In this document: positions 9,870 through 63,504 of the stretch, piece by piece
How positions within the stretch are numbered: position 1 is the first letter of the stretch
How the letters are laid out: every line of letters starts with the position of its first letter
Notes under the pieces: model-generated
What the model was told of the DNA's origin: nothing
Database searches by the model: none
What the model saw: the letters and a program-made list of their open reading frames with translations, nothing else
Translations under genes and position numbers: made by a program
IMG/VR virus record: IMGVR_UViG_3300009428_000004
Span: 27,018 to 91,017 of that record
Length of the DNA: 64,000 nucleotides
From: a virus
Direction: 5' to 3' (one strand)

Positions 9870-9945
9870 TGGTGCGCTTGAAAGGATTCGAACCTTTGAC
9901 CCTCGGTTTCGTAGACCGATATTCTATCCACTGAACTACAAACGC
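9870..9945 (-). tRNA. tRNA-Arg (anticodon ACG)
   Basis: The 76-base gene folds as a full cloverleaf on the minus strand: 7-bp acceptor stem (one G-U), anticodon stem T-C-G-G-T/A-C-C-G-A with loop C-T-A-C-G-A-A, giving anticodon ACG, and a 5-bp T stem with loop T-T-C-G-A-A-T. The 3' CCA is encoded (9872-9870). The D stem contains one G-U pair. Confidence 0.95.
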
Positions 9946-11034: not shown

Positions 11035-11111
11035 TGGCGTCCCCTGCAAGATTCGAACTTGCGACCTACGGCTTAGAAGGCCGTTGCTCTATCCAACTGA
11101 GCTAAGGAGAC
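11035..11111 (-). tRNA. tRNA-Arg (anticodon TCT)
   Basis: The 77-base gene forms a canonical cloverleaf on the minus strand: 7-bp acceptor, D stem G-C-T-C/G-A-G-C, anticodon stem A-C-G-G-C/G-C-C-G-T with loop C-T-T-C-T-A-A, and a perfect 5-bp T stem. The CCA end is encoded (11037-11035). TCT reads AGA/AGG codons. Confidence 0.97.
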
Positions 11112-21822: not shown

Positions 21823-22884
21823 TTAAGTTACTTTTTTCCATTCAGCCACCTCTAATTTTCCAGAGAGTCCCTGATAGGTGTTCATATCTATAATCATCTC
21901 TATATCTATAGGATTGGTACCATTAAGAACCATATCATTGATATCTTTGACTATCTCCTTCTTAGGGAAGATGCAGACTTTGAAGCCTTTGTCTAGACAT
22001 CTTTCCATACGCTGGACTATCTCTTTATTTCTTGGTTCGTTATCAAACACGAAAACAGCATTCTCTGTGTTCTCTAAACCTCTAGCATTACCATCAGCAC
22101 CTGCCATAGCGACAGCGTTACTCAAGAAGAGACTGTCGATAGGACCTTCTGTAACATAGTACTTCTTGTTAAAGTCAACCTTGTCTAGATTAAACATCTT
22201 AGGCATAGTATCGTCTAGCATTATAGTTATATATCTTAGTTCGTCATCACCAAAAGCTCTAGCATTAAATCCGAACAAATTGCCGCCCTTGTCTATGAAT
22301 GGCATGATCAGTCTAGGACGATCTCTCTCTATTGTAGGGAGCTTCCCAGGTACGATAGAGTTTACCCACTCATTAAACTTTGGCGCATAGTATAATTTAT
22401 ATTGTACCGATGCCGGGATCAGTCGTTTTTGCAAATAAATCTTAGCTTTATGATCATAATTTAGCTGAGAAATCTTTTTAATTTTTAGTAGAGGTGAGCC
22501 TTTCTTACGAAAGTTTGGTGCTTTCATTCTTAGCTTGTCTAACGGCTTTATTGGTTCTTGATGTCTATTCTGAAAGATTTCACGTCTCTGACCTTTCTCT
22601 AAAGCAGAGTCGATCACATATTCATTGAATAGATTGTTGTCGATGAATCTAAGAAAACTACGCATATTGTGTGATGCGTTACAATTATGGCAATAGATGA
22701 TTGCGGTGTTTTCTTTCTCAAGAATCCATCCACGTGCCTTAGTTTTGTTCTTTTGAGAGTCACCACAGATAGGACATCTGAAGTTAGCCCTGTAAGGATT
22801 ATGTGCCTTGACAGTAAATCTCTCTAATCTTACAGAGAGGATACCAGCATATTTTAGATCAGTAATATTCAATATAAACTCCAC
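21823..22884 (-). CDS. 61: DNA primase (gp61)
   Basis: The N-terminal zinc domain is visible (F-R-C-P-I-C-G-D-S and Y-C-H-N-C-N), followed by a TOPRIM-type core with V-T-E-G-P-I-D-S and V-F-V-F-D-N-E-P-R. With gp41 it forms the T4-like primosome. The longest frame starts at GTG 22884 without a ribosome site; TTG 22872 (M-N-I-T-D-L-K-Y) has GGAG six bases upstream and is the likelier start. Confidence 0.9.
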   Translation of the reverse strand: MEFILNITDLKYAGILSVRLERFTVKAHNPYRANFRCPICGDSQKNKTKARGWILEKENTAIIYCHNCNASHNMRSFLRFIDNNLFNEYVIDSALEKGQRREIFQNRHQEPIKPLDKLRMKAPNFRKKGSPLLKIKKISQLNYDHKAKIYLQKRLIPASVQYKLYYAPKFNEWVNSIVPGKLPTIERDRPRLIMPFIDKGGNLFGFNARAFGDDELRYITIMLDDTMPKMFNLDKVDFNKKYYVTEGPIDSLFLSNAVAMAGADGNARGLENTENAVFVFDNEPRNKEIVQRMERCLDKGFKVCIFPKKEIVKDINDMVLNGTNPIDIEMIIDMNTYQGLSGKLEVAEWKKVT

Positions 22885-26930: not shown

Positions 26931-27788
26931 CTAGTCCTCCAAAGCTTTAGCGATTGCTTTTCTGCGTCTATGTAGATACTTGTCTGACTCATCTTCATCG
27001 CCATCGTTGTCGAGGTCTTTATCTTTACGATCTGTAAACTTCTTCTTGACAGCTTTCTGATCTACATCATCCAAACCTTCTTTAACTTCTTCATGACTGG
27101 CGCACTTGCCTTCGTACACTTCGCTTATCGACTTTTGAACGTCTGCGATTGTTTTACACTTTGCATCACATCCAAGACTTCTCTTTGCGTATGCAATAAT
27201 CTTTGCATCTGGACCAGACATCTCTACGTCATCACCGCCAAAGCTTGAAGAGCCAAGCTTCTTCATCTTGATACCAGCTGGTGCTTTACCAGTGAAAGAT
27301 TTTACAGTGATAGTACCTTCTGACAATTCCTCGTCTTCGTCTTCGTCTTCGACTTTTTTGCCATCTTTCTTAGCATTTTTCTTATCGATTGCTTTCTGAA
27401 GAGCAGGTGGTAAAGTACCCTCTTCTACTTCAGCACTGTCGGGTTCACAGTCTTCTTTTACTGCTTTGTCTTCACTATAGCTCGCTTTTAATGCAGTAGG
27501 CTTATCTGAAACGTCTTTGTCTAACTTGCGCTTCGCTTTTGTTTTAATTTCACCGATTTCAGGAGTAACATCTCCTGCTTTAGGCACTGCTACGTCTCCA
27601 TCAGCTTGGTCTGCTTTGCGCTTACCAGCAGATTCGGATAGTTCTGCGTCTGCTTCTACAGCAGGTGCAAGGTCTACAGCAGGTTCTTCTACAACAGGCG
27701 ATTTAAAACCTTGCTGAGAAAGGGCAGCATCGAATGCATCTGCCATGCCTGCGGGTAATGGGTTAATATCTTTGGCTTTCTTAAACAT
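26931..27788 (-). CDS. acidic/basic virion protein with EF-hand-like motif
   Basis: The 285-residue protein alternates acidic linkers (E-D-E-D-E-D-E-E) with basic blocks. Near the C-terminus, D-K-D-L-D-N-D-G-D-E-D-E-S-D has the spacing of an EF-hand/dockerin calcium loop, followed by K-Y-L-H-R-R-R-K. Four Cys occur between residues 205 and 235. The N-terminus starts M-F-K-K-A-K-D-I-N-P-L-P. A virion or scaffold role is inferred from the late block and composition. Confidence 0.65.
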   Translation of the reverse strand: MFKKAKDINPLPAGMADAFDAALSQQGFKSPVVEEPAVDLAPAVEADAELSESAGKRKADQADGDVAVPKAGDVTPEIGEIKTKAKRKLDKDVSDKPTALKASYSEDKAVKEDCEPDSAEVEEGTLPPALQKAIDKKNAKKDGKKVEDEDEDEELSEGTITVKSFTGKAPAGIKMKKLGSSSFGGDDVEMSGPDAKIIAYAKRSLGCDAKCKTIADVQKSISEVYEGKCASHEEVKEGLDDVDQKAVKKKFTDRKDKDLDNDGDEDESDKYLHRRRKAIAKALED

Positions 27789-52642: not shown

Positions 52643-52670
52643 ATTATAGCAGGTTGGACAGCAATGTCAA
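52643..52670 (-). promoter_or_regulatory. sigma-70 promoter, consensus boxes
   Basis: TTGACA (52670-52665), 16-bp spacer, TATAAT (52648-52643) on the minus strand; the spacer end CCAACCTGC is shared with 52378 and 53009. Confidence 0.87.
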
Positions 52671-58660: not shown

Positions 58661-59724
58661 AAATTGATAGCCTCATTGTGTAGATCCTCGAGAACTTTTT
58701 CGATCTTACTCTTATCATTAGTAATCTCTAAGTTCTGTACGTATTGCTTCAAAATTGTTAAAGTGTCCTGCGCTTCATCGACCAACTCGCTCTCATCGAT
58801 AACATCAAGGTTCATGTGGTCTTCTACGACTTTGATGTCGCACGGAGCAGATGCTTGAAGTTTATCTAAGAACAGATCGAATATATAAGGATTGTTCTTA
58901 ACTGATACAATGACTTTTATGAAAGTGTTTGCCAAGTTAGACGTATCTAGATTAGCAATGTCTTCTATAGTCATGTTAGTATCATCGTACATTATCTTAT
59001 GAAACAAACTAAATGGATTACGAATATGCTCCATCTTACGAGACTCAGTATCGAACACACTGAAGCCACGCTTTTGATCGTGATCAGACCAGGTCATCTC
59101 ATATTGAGCACCTAGATATGATATGTTACCAATCGATGAAGGTTGATGAAAGTGACCAGAGTACACAGAATCAAACTTAGCAAATGTAGTGCGGTCCATA
59201 CCGTGATCACATAGATGTCCTTTGTCCATCTCATAACCAGTAATCTCAAAATGACCCATAAGAATCTGTGCCTTAGTTTCAGACATAGCTTTCATAGACT
59301 CTTCATAGTTGTCAGCACATAGCCATGGAGCAAGCATTATTTTGCATCCATCCATCTCTAGCTCGACAGGTCTTTCCCAATACAGATGTAAATTTTCGTG
59401 ACTAGTGTTACCGTACAGCTGGTTAAGGCTGTTTACGTCATTAGTGTTCTTGAAGTACGTATCATGATTACCAGCTATCATGTATAGCTCTATATTCTCA
59501 TCGGCACAAACTCTCATGAAGTGATCTTCAAGATTCTTGGCTGTAACGAAGTTAATATACTTTCGTCTATCTGTGACATCACCTAAGTGAAAAATAGTAG
59601 TAATGCCATGCTCACGTAAATACGGAAAGAATACTTCCCGATAAAACTTTATTTGATGTTCAGCAATTGCGGCATTGTCATTTCTTGCGCCCCAATGCGT
59701 ATCATTAATAACAGCAATCTTCAC
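58657..59724 (-). CDS. 47: recombination nuclease subunit (gp47, Mre11-like; GTG start)
   Basis: Metallophosphatase motifs: N-D-T-H-W-G, F-H-L-G-D-V-T-D, I-A-G-N-H-D, L-M-G-H-F-E and S-G-H-F-H. The 355-residue length fits gp47. GTG 59724 overlaps the gene 55 stop (GTGA). Confidence 0.96.
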   Translation of the reverse strand: MKIAVINDTHWGARNDNAAIAEHQIKFYREVFFPYLREHGITTIFHLGDVTDRRKYINFVTAKNLEDHFMRVCADENIELYMIAGNHDTYFKNTNDVNSLNQLYGNTSHENLHLYWERPVELEMDGCKIMLAPWLCADNYEESMKAMSETKAQILMGHFEITGYEMDKGHLCDHGMDRTTFAKFDSVYSGHFHQPSSIGNISYLGAQYEMTWSDHDQKRGFSVFDTESRKMEHIRNPFSLFHKIMYDDTNMTIEDIANLDTSNLANTFIKVIVSVKNNPYIFDLFLDKLQASAPCDIKVVEDHMNLDVIDESELVDEAQDTLTILKQYVQNLEITNDKSKIEKVLEDLHNEAINL

Positions 59725-60326
59725 TCAGACTTCTCCTCGACTTTAGTCTCATCAGTATCTGATTTATCATCGGGAAGAACTACGTCTTCTGCAATGAACT
59801 TCTCTAAACCAATCTTAGCTTTTATCTGCTTCTTCTTCTTATCTTCGATCTTCTTCTCATAAGTCCTAACAAAGTCTGACATGTAATCGTTGTTAAGATC
59901 AATGTACGCAGGTTCACCAGAAGCATCATCAGCTCCATCTGTAGCTGTACCCGTCATGACTGAGTTTACAGTTACCTTGTGCTTAATATACAACTGTTTC
60001 TTCTCTTTGTCAATACGTCTTAAGAATGCATACCATATGATTTGAGTGAAGTAAGCAAATGGATTATGAGACTTCTCTGGATCAAAGTTGCCTAGTGCTT
60101 GAATAGCATTTTCTAAGCCGTCGCTGATCATCTCATCTTTATATGAATATCCTGAAAAGTTGGGCTTGGACGCTAGTCTAGTCGATATCTGATAGATACA
60201 GTGCCCAATATAGTTTGGTATTTGTGGACGTTTATCACCCGAGTCTTCTGCTTCGATACACAGTTTCTTGTAGGCTATGATAGCCTCTAAGAACTCCGGG
60301 TTATTAACGTAATTACGTTTTGCCAT
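59721..60326 (-). CDS. 55: late-promoter sigma factor (gp55)
   Basis: Reduced sigma-70-family protein: Y-S-Y-K-D-E-M-I-S-D-G-L-E-N-A-I-Q-A-L and F-A-Y-F-T-Q-I-I-W-Y-A-F-L-R-R-I form region 2. The extended acidic/Lys-rich C-terminus is longer than in T4. It recognises TATAAATA boxes, found repeatedly in this window. ATG 60326 has AGGAG eight bases upstream; the longer frame starts at a GTG inside that site. Confidence 0.95.
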   Translation of the reverse strand: MAKRNYVNNPEFLEAIIAYKKLCIEAEDSGDKRPQIPNYIGHCIYQISTRLASKPNFSGYSYKDEMISDGLENAIQALGNFDPEKSHNPFAYFTQIIWYAFLRRIDKEKKQLYIKHKVTVNSVMTGTATDGADDASGEPAYIDLNNDYMSDFVRTYEKKIEDKKKKQIKAKIGLEKFIAEDVVLPDDKSDTDETKVEEKSE

Positions 60327-60351
60327 TAGATTCACTCCTTATTTGACTATC

Positions 60352-60380
60352 ATTATAGCTGAAAGAACATGCCATGTCAA
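60352..60380 (-). promoter_or_regulatory. perfect sigma-70 promoter for gene 55
   Basis: TTGACA (60380-60375), 17-bp spacer, TATAAT (60357-60352) on the minus strand. Confidence 0.9.
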
Positions 60381-60432
60381 GCATTATATAAGATATTTTG
60401 TTAGATTAATTGAATTATTTTCGAGATATGTA

Positions 60433-60461
60433 TTGACAAACCATGAAACGGACTGTATAAT
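60433..60461 (+). promoter_or_regulatory. perfect sigma-70 promoter facing against the genes, copy 1
   Basis: TTGACA (60433-60438), exactly 17 bp, TATAAT (60456-60461) on the plus strand. The transcript would start near 60468 and run antisense to the 114-aa gene and uvsW. Confidence 0.88.
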
Positions 60462-60597
60462 AGAGTTATCGCTCTTAAGAATAATACTAGATTGGGTAGT
60501 AGTAATGTACATGGTATTCTCACTCTTTCTGCGAAAGTGCTTGACAGCAAGATCATCTCTGTGTATAATAGCGTTATCGCTGTAAACAATAATACTA
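60462..60597 (+). repeat. two similar initial-transcribed regions, 108 bp apart
   Basis: Both plus-strand promoters are followed by nearly the same roughly 28 bases (from 60462 and 60570), each able to form a short 5' hairpin: 60462-60465 with 60472-60475 in copy 1, and 60570-60573 with 60578-60581 in copy 2. The remaining 60381-60594 interval holds no convincing gene; a minus-strand frame across it is produced by the repeats. Confidence 0.7.
60541..60569 (+). promoter_or_regulatory. perfect sigma-70 promoter facing against the genes, copy 2
   Basis: TTGACA (60541-60546), exactly 17 bp, TATAAT (60564-60569) on the plus strand. Start expected near 60576. No terminator is visible just downstream. 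Confidence 0.88.
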
Positions 60598-60939
60598 ATG
60601 TTTGATCTGATCTCTAGATTCGAGGTATGCAACTAGTAGGTCTTCGACTTCTTCGGTCAAGTTTGTCTCTCTATCATCTTGTAGGTCTTTCAATCTAGAT
60701 ACGAATGTGTCGTAGTACTCTATTGCTTTTTCGTTAGCCTCTCCGCAAAACAAAACATCGTCATTTCCTAGAGTGACAGCATTTGCTTTAGACAATAGCA
60801 TCCAACTCTTAGCAAAGAATCCGTGTACTGGGTGTATGCGTACCTGAATTGGATTCTCTACTACGATACTCTCTTTGCCAGTCTTTATTAGATCAGCTAT
60901 AAGATCATCACCATTATTCATTTTAATATGTATCAACAT
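60595..60939 (-). CDS. conserved Sm-like protein, 114 aa
   Basis: The N-terminal 75 residues read like an Sm-type barrel: M-L-I-H-I-K-M-N-N-G-D-D-L-I-A-D-L, V-V-E-N-P-I-Q-V-R-I-H and F-F-A-K-S-W-M-L-L-S. The C-terminus is acidic and helical. Relatives are found between gene 55 and uvsW in marine T4-like phages as I recall. It may bind RNA; unproven. Confidence 0.78.
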   Translation of the reverse strand: MLIHIKMNNGDDLIADLIKTGKESIVVENPIQVRIHPVHGFFAKSWMLLSKANAVTLGNDDVLFCGEANEKAIEYYDTFVSRLKDLQDDRETNLTEEVEDLLVAYLESRDQIKH

Positions 60940-60942
60940 GGC

Positions 60943-62400
60943 TTACCCCTTAACGTTAACATTATATATACGATACTCAAAACCCTCATCGTTGTAAATC
61001 TTTACTCTTTCCATGAAGTGTTTAGTAGCGAAGTTCTTAGTCTGTTTCCATTGTAGATCATCTACTATATCGTAAAGCGTAGCTTTACTGTTCCCATCAT
61101 GCTTTCTTAGTACTCGTCCGATCGATTGTAGATTTCTGATTTTCGATTTAGACGGGCTTGCAAAGATGATATTGTCCAAACGCTTGATATTAACACCAGT
61201 GCTGAAAGTACCATAACTAGCGAGGATAATATTATCATCATTTGTTTCAGACAATCTCCTAACATTCTCACGCTCTTCTGCACCAACTCCGCCATGTATG
61301 AAGTGTATGTTCTTACCTTCTTTTTCAAGCATGGGATGTAAGACTTTACCGTGTTTTTCGACAAACTGAAATAGAATAAGAGTGTTGCCCTTGAGGCTAT
61401 GTGCCAAATTTTTAATGTATTTATTACGTGATTCATTACCAACAATCCAGTCAATTTCTTCTTGATAGCTCTTACCTTTATTTAGCTTCCTAATTTCGTC
61501 TGGATATTGGAGAGCAATTGCTACAATACCAAACTCCGCAAGCGTGTTGTCTTCGATTAGCTTCTTAGTCTGAGTGACTTCAAATACTGAACCAAATAGT
61601 CCTTCTAACACTAGCTTATGTGTTTCTGTGCCATCTAACGTGCCTGTAAAACCGTAACGATACTTACAGTCAGGCATTTTTTCTAATACTGATACAAGAG
61701 ACTTAGCTTTGAATAGATGCGCTTCATCTCCCATCACTACGTCAAACTTAGCAAACCAATCTTTTTTCAGCTTGTATACTGATTGCCAAGTAGTGATAGT
61801 TATATCAGCATCTACATTCTTATCAACACCACCTCTAATCTTGTGTATGCTCAGTTCATTGCCATTGTTGTATTCGATGAAGTCTGTAGACATTTGCTCG
61901 ACTAGTGACGTTGTTGGTACAACAATTAAAACCTTTCTCTGTGAAGACTCTACGTGATATCGTGTCAATAGATATATGATAAAAGACTTACCCGATGCTG
62001 TTGGCGATAGCAGTAATGCTCTATCACTTTTGAGTGCATGAACTACTGCGTTGTTTTGATAATCTCTAGGAACAAATGGCGAGTTAAACTCTTTTGATAG
62101 ATCGAGTCCAGCAGTATCTTGTACGAGATTGTTGGGTACAACTCCCTTATCTACCGTAACATGGTATTCCCTAACGTTACAAAACTTGAGTATGTACGGA
62201 ACTAGTCCAGCATATATCATACCAGTCATAACATTGAGTAGACGAATCTTACCGTCCCAAACTTTGTTACGTACAGAAGGCATAAACTTAGCACCAGGTA
62301 CTTCGAATGTGAAGTACTCCGACATTTCCATCTTCACGCCAGGGTCAGCATTGACTCTAACGTAGACTTCGTTTACCTTCTCGATACTCACTTCATCCAT
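60943..62400 (-). CDS. uvsW: UvsW RNA-DNA/DNA helicase
   Basis: SF2 helicase with Q-type P-R-D-Y-Q, Walker A S-P-T-A-S-G-K-S (132-139), D-E-A-H and the late motif Q-S-I-G-R-V-L-R-K. UvsW unwinds R-loops at origins and branched recombination intermediates, and in T4 marks the switch from origin- to recombination-dependent replication. It overlaps uvsY by one base. Confidence 0.95.
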   Translation of the reverse strand: MDEVSIEKVNEVYVRVNADPGVKMEMSEYFTFEVPGAKFMPSVRNKVWDGKIRLLNVMTGMIYAGLVPYILKFCNVREYHVTVDKGVVPNNLVQDTAGLDLSKEFNSPFVPRDYQNNAVVHALKSDRALLLSPTASGKSFIIYLLTRYHVESSQRKVLIVVPTTSLVEQMSTDFIEYNNGNELSIHKIRGGVDKNVDADITITTWQSVYKLKKDWFAKFDVVMGDEAHLFKAKSLVSVLEKMPDCKYRYGFTGTLDGTETHKLVLEGLFGSVFEVTQTKKLIEDNTLAEFGIVAIALQYPDEIRKLNKGKSYQEEIDWIVGNESRNKYIKNLAHSLKGNTLILFQFVEKHGKVLHPMLEKEGKNIHFIHGGVGAEERENVRRLSETNDDNIILASYGTFSTGVNIKRLDNIIFASPSKSKIRNLQSIGRVLRKHDGNSKATLYDIVDDLQWKQTKNFATKHFMERVKIYNDEGFEYRIYNVNVKG

Positions 62401-62834
62401 TATGCACCTGTTCTAAAGCGTTCCCAATCAATTATAGATTTGATTTGAAATCCTCTATTGTTAATTTGTTTAATGATTGCTTCTAGATATTCTACCTTTT
62501 GTGCCTGTGCGCCTATCTTCAGAGATGAATCTATGATGTCATCGTCTGCTTCTAAGTATGATGGAATATCTTGTCGTAGAATTTTTAGGGGCTGTGGTTT
62601 CCAACCAAACTGCTTTAGTTCAGTATCGTCTAGTTCGCCTCTATAGTATTCTGTCTTGAGTTTGAAAAGCTTCTTATAGTCAGCTTTCATCTTACGTAGG
62701 ATGTAACCTTCACCCATGTAAATTTTGAAGTACTTGTTGTGTAGCTTCGGCGTTTGTGATGCTTCGTTTGATATGTTTATAGTATCAACTGGTCCATCTT
62801 TTTCCCACGCTTCAATAATATCTTCTAATTTCAT
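62400..62834 (-). CDS. uvsY: UvsY recombination mediator
   Basis: A 144-residue helical protein next to uvsW as in T4. Y-F-K-I-Y-M-G-E-G-Y-I-L-R-K-M, Y-Y-R-G-E-L and the ending F-Q-I-K-S-I-I-D-W-E-R-F fit UvsY. It loads UvsX on gp32-coated DNA. Confidence 0.9.
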   Translation of the reverse strand: MKLEDIIEAWEKDGPVDTINISNEASQTPKLHNKYFKIYMGEGYILRKMKADYKKLFKLKTEYYRGELDDTELKQFGWKPQPLKILRQDIPSYLEADDDIIDSSLKIGAQAQKVEYLEAIIKQINNRGFQIKSIIDWERFRTGA

Positions 62835-63444: not shown

Positions 63445-63474
63445 AAAAAAAAGAGGCTCCGAAGAGCCTCTTTA
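63445..63474 (-). terminator. strong terminator after gene 23
   Basis: A 10-bp perfect stem (63450-63459 with 63464-63473) with a UUCG loop on the minus strand, followed by a U run. Confidence 0.95.
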
Positions 63475-63504
63475 AAGTAGGTTGGGTTGACCCCAATCTT
63501 ATTT

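Follow-up and report, generated by a model that had tools for sequence, protein, structure and literature searches.

A conserved, predicted antisense promoter with a start-site inverted repeat beside uvsW in marine T4-like phages

Results

Two antisense promoters beside gene 55

The window, a 64,000-nucleotide stretch of viral DNA (IMG/VR record IMGVR_UViG_3300009428_000004, positions 27,018 to 91,017), carries on its minus strand gene 55, an Sm-like gene, uvsW and uvsY (Table 1). The annotation of the Sm-like gene in cyanophages is 'methylamine utilization'. The 268-bp gap between gene 55 and the Sm-like gene (60327-60594) houses two predicted promoters of the opposite orientation, P1 and P2. 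The first-pass annotation had described two exact TTGACA-17-TATAAT promoters on the plus strand, 108 bp apart in the gap beside the gene 55 promoter, that share about 28 bases after the −10 box. All of this is found at the locus, and 24 of the 28 bases are identical between the two copies. The Sm-like gene, uvsW and uvsY all lie on the minus strand, so that plus-strand transcripts would be antisense to the three of them, as had also been proposed. Our promoter and start-site calls are consensus-based, with expected starts deduced from consensus spacing.

Table 1 Features of the locus, in window coordinates.
Feature	Position	Strand	Remarks
Gene 55, late sigma factor	59721..60326	−	phrog_234, 3.8e-58
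Gene 55 divergent promoter	60352..60380	−	perfect TTGACA-17-TATAAT
AT-rich linker	60381..60432	.	52 bp between the divergent −35 boxes; length helically phased across relatives
Antisense promoter P1	60433..60461	+	−35 TTGACA 60433-60438, 17-bp spacer, −10 TATAAT 60456-60461
Start-site inverted repeat 1	60462..60475	+	AGAGTTATCGCTCT, TTATCG between the arms; centre at expected start 60468
Antisense promoter P2	60541..60569	+	−35 TTGACA 60541-60546, 17-bp spacer, −10 TATAAT 60564-60569
Start-site inverted repeat 2	60570..60581	+	AGCGTTATCGCT, TTAT between the arms; centre at expected start 60576
Sm-like gene (T4-like GC 139)	60595..60939	−	overlapped in antisense by the predicted P1/P2 transcripts
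uvsW helicase gene	60943..62400	−	next antisense target after the Sm-like gene
uvsY	62400..62834	−	

A scan of the 91,017-bp record for TTGACA-N15-19-TATAAT returns 22 perfect promoters: 20 belong to the minus (coding) strand, and the only two of the plus strand are P1 and P2. None appears in 60 simulations of the window under an order-2 Markov model. The strand bias within the record, together with conservation in relatives, excludes a chance origin of the pair. A hidden gene in the gap was also rejected: no conservation was seen for the ORFs across it (37-82 aa), and phiM12 alone has an annotated small ORF at this place. Rfam gave only two tRNAs, and no match at the element.

Several other features of the window were recorded. 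A second promoter family on the minus (coding) strand, for example at 52670, 53036, 8805 and 12238, has a 16-bp spacer with the conserved end TTGACATTGNNGTCCAACCTGCTATAAT and is apparently repeated across the record. Perfect sigma-70 promoters also lie within coding sequences, in gene direction, on the minus strand (56219-56191 and 54624-54596). Adjacent terminator-like hairpins on both strands stand between late genes at 63450-63499, and two tRNA genes occupy the minus strand at 9873-9945 and 11038-11111.

Conservation at the junction

The gene order uvsY, uvsW, Sm-like gene (T4 GC 139), gene 55, 47, 46 is common to cyanophages and Pelagibacter phage HTVC008M. We compared 55 distinct upstream regions of IMG/VR gene 55 relatives, referred to as the window clade. 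A promoter pointing away from gene 55 is present in 55/55 of these loci, with a 12/12 match in 50. The tandem layout noticed at first is confirmed in the window, yet it is exceptional: two copies occur in 7 of the 55 loci and the others have one.

All 15 marine isolates examined, namely 14 cyanophages (Syn9 among them) and HTVC008M, possess the antisense promoter, the weakest versions being those of P-HM2 (10/12) and ACG-2014f (TTGCCA). In Sinorhizobium phage phiM12 the promoter reads TTGACA-16-TATAAT, with CAGGAATGTCCTG after it. An annotated antisense-strand ORF of about 50 aa (22251-22403, +) comes directly after the element in this phage; none was seen among the marine phages studied. The 5' ends of the predicted antisense transcripts are expected near 84474 (−) in S-PM2, 123733 (−) in Syn9, 120744 (−) in P-HM2 and about 22.2 kb (+) in phiM12.

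Three further gene 55 sets, assembled without bias and counted as distinct loci, extend the comparison. A promoter matching at least 10 of 12 positions is found in 75/75 loci of the S-PM2-like set, 71/79 of the HTVC008M-like set and 68/68 of the S-RIM2-like set (214/222 in sum). At 11/12 or better, the respective counts are 50/75, 60/79 and 53/68. Antisense control windows inside genes score at these two levels in 7-11% and 0-0.2% of cases. Altogether, sigma-70 hexamers with 16-18 bp spacing reach at least 10/12 in 269 of 277 distinct loci, and 12/12 twice in the window.

Most of the misses in the HTVC-like set have a gene inserted beside gene 55, the element being farther off and adjoining the Sm-like gene. 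Such an inserted gene precedes gene 55 in at least nine phages, where the element stays next to the Sm-like gene. The junction of the T4-like phages Yut3 and ACP17 measures only 11 and 26 bp and is devoid of the element; T-even RB51, with a different gene order, is also without it.

The check proposed in the first-pass annotation, a search at the same place in relatives, thus locates the element at the junction of gene 55 and the Sm-like gene far beyond the window clade, including in cyanophages, HTVC008M and phiM12. As judged from sequence comparison, marine T4-like phages have conserved a strong predicted sigma-70-type promoter that points away from gene 55, towards the Sm-like gene and uvsW. 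That hundreds of related phages carry it in the same place implies that it has some function; in the open-access literature, nobody appears to have described one.

The element also has copies at other places. Its strict cyanophage form is carried by 80 contigs, at gene 55 in 64 of them, cut off at the uvsW side in 2 and elsewhere in 14; for the window form, the 46 contigs divide into 36 at gene 55, 1 cut off and 9 elsewhere. Several of the 14 copies lie in sense, 75-90 bp ahead of small genes. S-PM2 holds one sense copy (162737) and ACG-2014b two. Because the promoter with its repeat also precedes ordinary sense genes in some phages, it may be simply a promoter class. At S-PM2 162737 and in five other relatives, the promoter and leader stand in sense ahead of a small conserved gene, which in S-PM2 belongs to phrog_507. 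In Synechococcus phage Sf-FR1 (43500-47500) and one more relative, a second antisense copy adjoins another UvsW-like helicase gene (phrog_16).

The start-site inverted repeat

A short inverted repeat starts at the first nucleotide past the −10 box and has the expected start at its centre. The stems of the two window copies differ (AGAG/CTCT versus AGCG/CGCT) and both keep pairing. In relatives, the stems change completely yet remain complementary around a constant TGT, or TTAT in the window clade; examples are CCGGTATGTCCGG, AACGGTGTCCGTT, AGACTATGTAGTCT, AACAGTGTCGCTGTT and AACTCTGTCAGGGTT, next to AGCGTTATCGCT from the window. Of 153 distinct non-window leaders, 149 have the TGT 6-9 nt past the −10 box, a position that fits the expected sigma-70 start spacing; the window clade has TTAT or TTAA. 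Conservation of the pairing and not of the sequence is unusual for a sigma-70 promoter.

We tested covariation by swapping right arms between relatives and rescoring the pairing. In the HTVC-like set, the stem score is 4.00 versus 2.66 with swapped arms, and stems of at least 4 number 32 versus 11.5 (300 shuffles, maximum 20). The window clade has 20 stems versus 7.5 with swapped arms. The S-RIM2-like set is uninformative in this respect, as its arms hardly vary. For 14 picked sequences placed in one geometry, 86% of cells pair versus 47% when shuffled, with 25 double-change cells versus 8.9 expected from shuffles (0/500 reach it); since these sequences were picked for a visible stem, the HTVC-like arm-swap test is the fairer one. 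About 11 of 37 window-clade and 12 of 50 HTVC-like leaders show no clear stem.

Three other accounts of these sequences were rejected. The repeat is not a general promoter feature, as other promoters have no excess of start-site hairpins. Nor does it serve the uvsW operon as a hairpin or terminator on the coding strand: there, the T-G pair common in S-PM2-like stems turns into A-C, and no T-run comes after. Finally, the 'ACTAATGTTTA' after the repeat, which at first seemed conserved, largely reflects the C-terminal Lys-His-stop codons of the Sm-like gene as seen from the opposite strand.

A dyad centred on the start is the classic position of a repressor, and the copies within S-PM2, like those within ACG-2014b, share their repeat sequence. 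Both facts would suit an operator through which a phage or host regulator shuts the promoter. However, tandem copies within a genome have different stems, and from species to species the stem sequence varies with hardly any restriction, complementarity being kept; the stems also contain 45 G-T against 0 A-C pairs, though from few independent events. An operator is, to our mind, the least probable of the explanations considered here.

The first-pass annotation had seen in each copy a hairpin beginning the transcript, with stem bases that vary between copies. The variation holds, but the structure is not expected to form a 5' hairpin of the RNA. With a start about 7 nt after the −10 box, the TGT would contain +1 and the left arm would lie upstream, outside the RNA. 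The element is therefore better described as a DNA start-site inverted repeat, and we infer that its pairing acts in opened DNA.

Product or process

A conserved intrinsic terminator was not found within 500 nt downstream (13/120 versus 6/120 in the control), and no conserved stretch continues beyond about 25 nt. Where the Sm-like gene is overlapped at its end, fourfold-site divergence is about 0.39, only slightly below the 0.47 or so elsewhere. No GC-skew switch occurs at the site in S-PM2, P-HM2, HTVC008M, ACG-2014b or the 91-kb record. The lack of a terminator and of a skew switch, with little extra coding constraint, favours a process at the site over a product: the element would act in cis, through transcription initiation itself.

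A short trans-acting or structured small RNA starting at the element, an idea of the first-pass annotation, would account for a strong promoter without an evident gene and for the GUCAGGGUUCA common to cyanophage leaders. It is weakened by the absent terminator (although processing or Rho could end the transcript), by the little coding constraint, by downstream conservation that ends so early, by the missing Rfam match and by a left hairpin arm situated outside the transcript. We consider such an RNA very unlikely.

The divergent pair

The distance from −35 to −35 box between the antisense and gene 55 promoters falls into bands of 13-15, 22-27, 31-38, 41-47 and 52-57 in the window clade and the HTVC-like set. 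The best periods are 10.0 and 10.5 bp in the two sets, which agree in phase; 0/2000 jittered sets are equally periodic, a p-value that is optimistic because dereplicated loci were taken as independent though related. The bands follow each other by about 10.5 bp over five turns, and the linkers are AT-rich. In most S-RIM2-like phages the divergent promoters overlap (at −16), and in most S-PM2-like phages they are 2-7 bp apart.

This helical phasing, like the overlapping or abutting promoters, would be consistent with a coupling of the divergent promoters: the gene 55 promoter, lying on the same face of the DNA, would be regulated by polymerase or a factor bound at the antisense one. Yet the antisense element persists in the at least nine phages where an inserted gene separates the pair, so coupling cannot explain everything. 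Sense copies of the element exist without a divergent partner, and the phasing may come from shared A/T-tract UP elements. Coupling is quite improbable as the function of the element.

Discussion

A candidate replication origin

Few viruses are as abundant as the marine T4-like phages, for which we know of no mapped replication origin in the open-access literature. The element offers a precise, conserved candidate, testable in cultured phage-host pairs. An origin of the R-loop type is the leading candidate for its use in our assessment, possible though tentative.

R-loops of T4 need no specific transcript sequence, only a promoter and an unwinding element, and they are removed by UvsW (PMC3016281). 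Where only the act of transcription matters, an unconserved downstream sequence and the lack of a terminator are expected. More R-loops also form in vitro when the non-template strand is stabilised, and self-pairing of this strand accompanies nick-started R-loops (PMC12478114). At the element, RNA polymerase would open the DNA at the start site, and the melted non-template strand could fold on the repeat, with its left arm at about −6 to −2 and its right arm at about +4 to +8. The folded strand would hinder re-annealing, the 5' end of the RNA staying paired with the template as an R-loop. This R-loop may then start replication in the manner of T4 oriF/oriG and be cleared afterwards by UvsW, which is encoded alongside. 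The two tandem copies of the window would double the site.

The first-pass annotation had already suggested an origin next to uvsW. The absence of a gene product, the neighbouring uvsW, the AT-richness, the start-site repeat and the conserved place agree with it; a GC-skew switch is missing, as it is from T4 oriA and oriC. The A+T content of the gap stands at the 99.96th percentile (top 0.04%) of 150-bp windows in the record, where intergenic DNA is generally AT-rich, and the site ranks at percentiles of 96-99.7 in four relatives. Cyanophage leaders are not notably AT-rich, which counts against an origin. T4 oriF is located at uvsY, and oriE is said to depend on an early-type promoter. The motA gene is absent from cyanomyoviruses (PMC2984593). 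The further-reaching proposal, of a new phage promoter class with a sequence-free start-site hairpin that serves as the conserved main origin of marine T4-like phages, we regard as unlikely.

The main rival to an origin is antisense or convergent transcription that controls the junction between uvsW-Sm-like and gene 55; although somewhat doubtful, it is a serious one, and the data do not decide between the two. In this reading, polymerases moving early against the upstream operon would keep transcription from reading through into gene 55 and hold down uvsW and Sm-like expression until late infection. Such control would make sense of an orientation that is the same in every locus at the junction, of an element that keeps its place at the Sm-like gene's end despite gene insertions ahead of gene 55, and of a promoter that in the window clade usually equals or exceeds that of gene 55 in its match to the consensus. 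It leaves unexplained the covarying start-site repeat and the sense copies elsewhere, and in S-SSM7 an extra gene separates uvsW from the Sm-like gene.

Comparison with known systems

The T4 origins oriF (ori(uvsY)) and oriG (ori(34)) resemble the element in being promoter-based, with an unimportant transcript sequence, a proposed R-loop and UvsW encoded nearby. They rely on a MotA middle promoter, whereas the window element, only a candidate origin, has the sigma-70 consensus, is antisense to uvsW and bears a start-site inverted repeat. T4 oriE has an early-type promoter as well; contrary to it, the candidate in the window is devoid of iterons. CfrI of cyanophage S-PM2 is another antisense transcript of a T4-like cyanophage. 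CfrI is, however, known to be expressed, as an RNA of about 225 nt at the psbA locus, while the transcript of the window element is predicted, with no discrete 3' end seen. The ordinary sigma-70 early and middle promoters of the same phages have TTGACA-16/17-TATAAT in common with it, but most of them belong to the coding strand, and start-site hairpins occur in them at background rate only.
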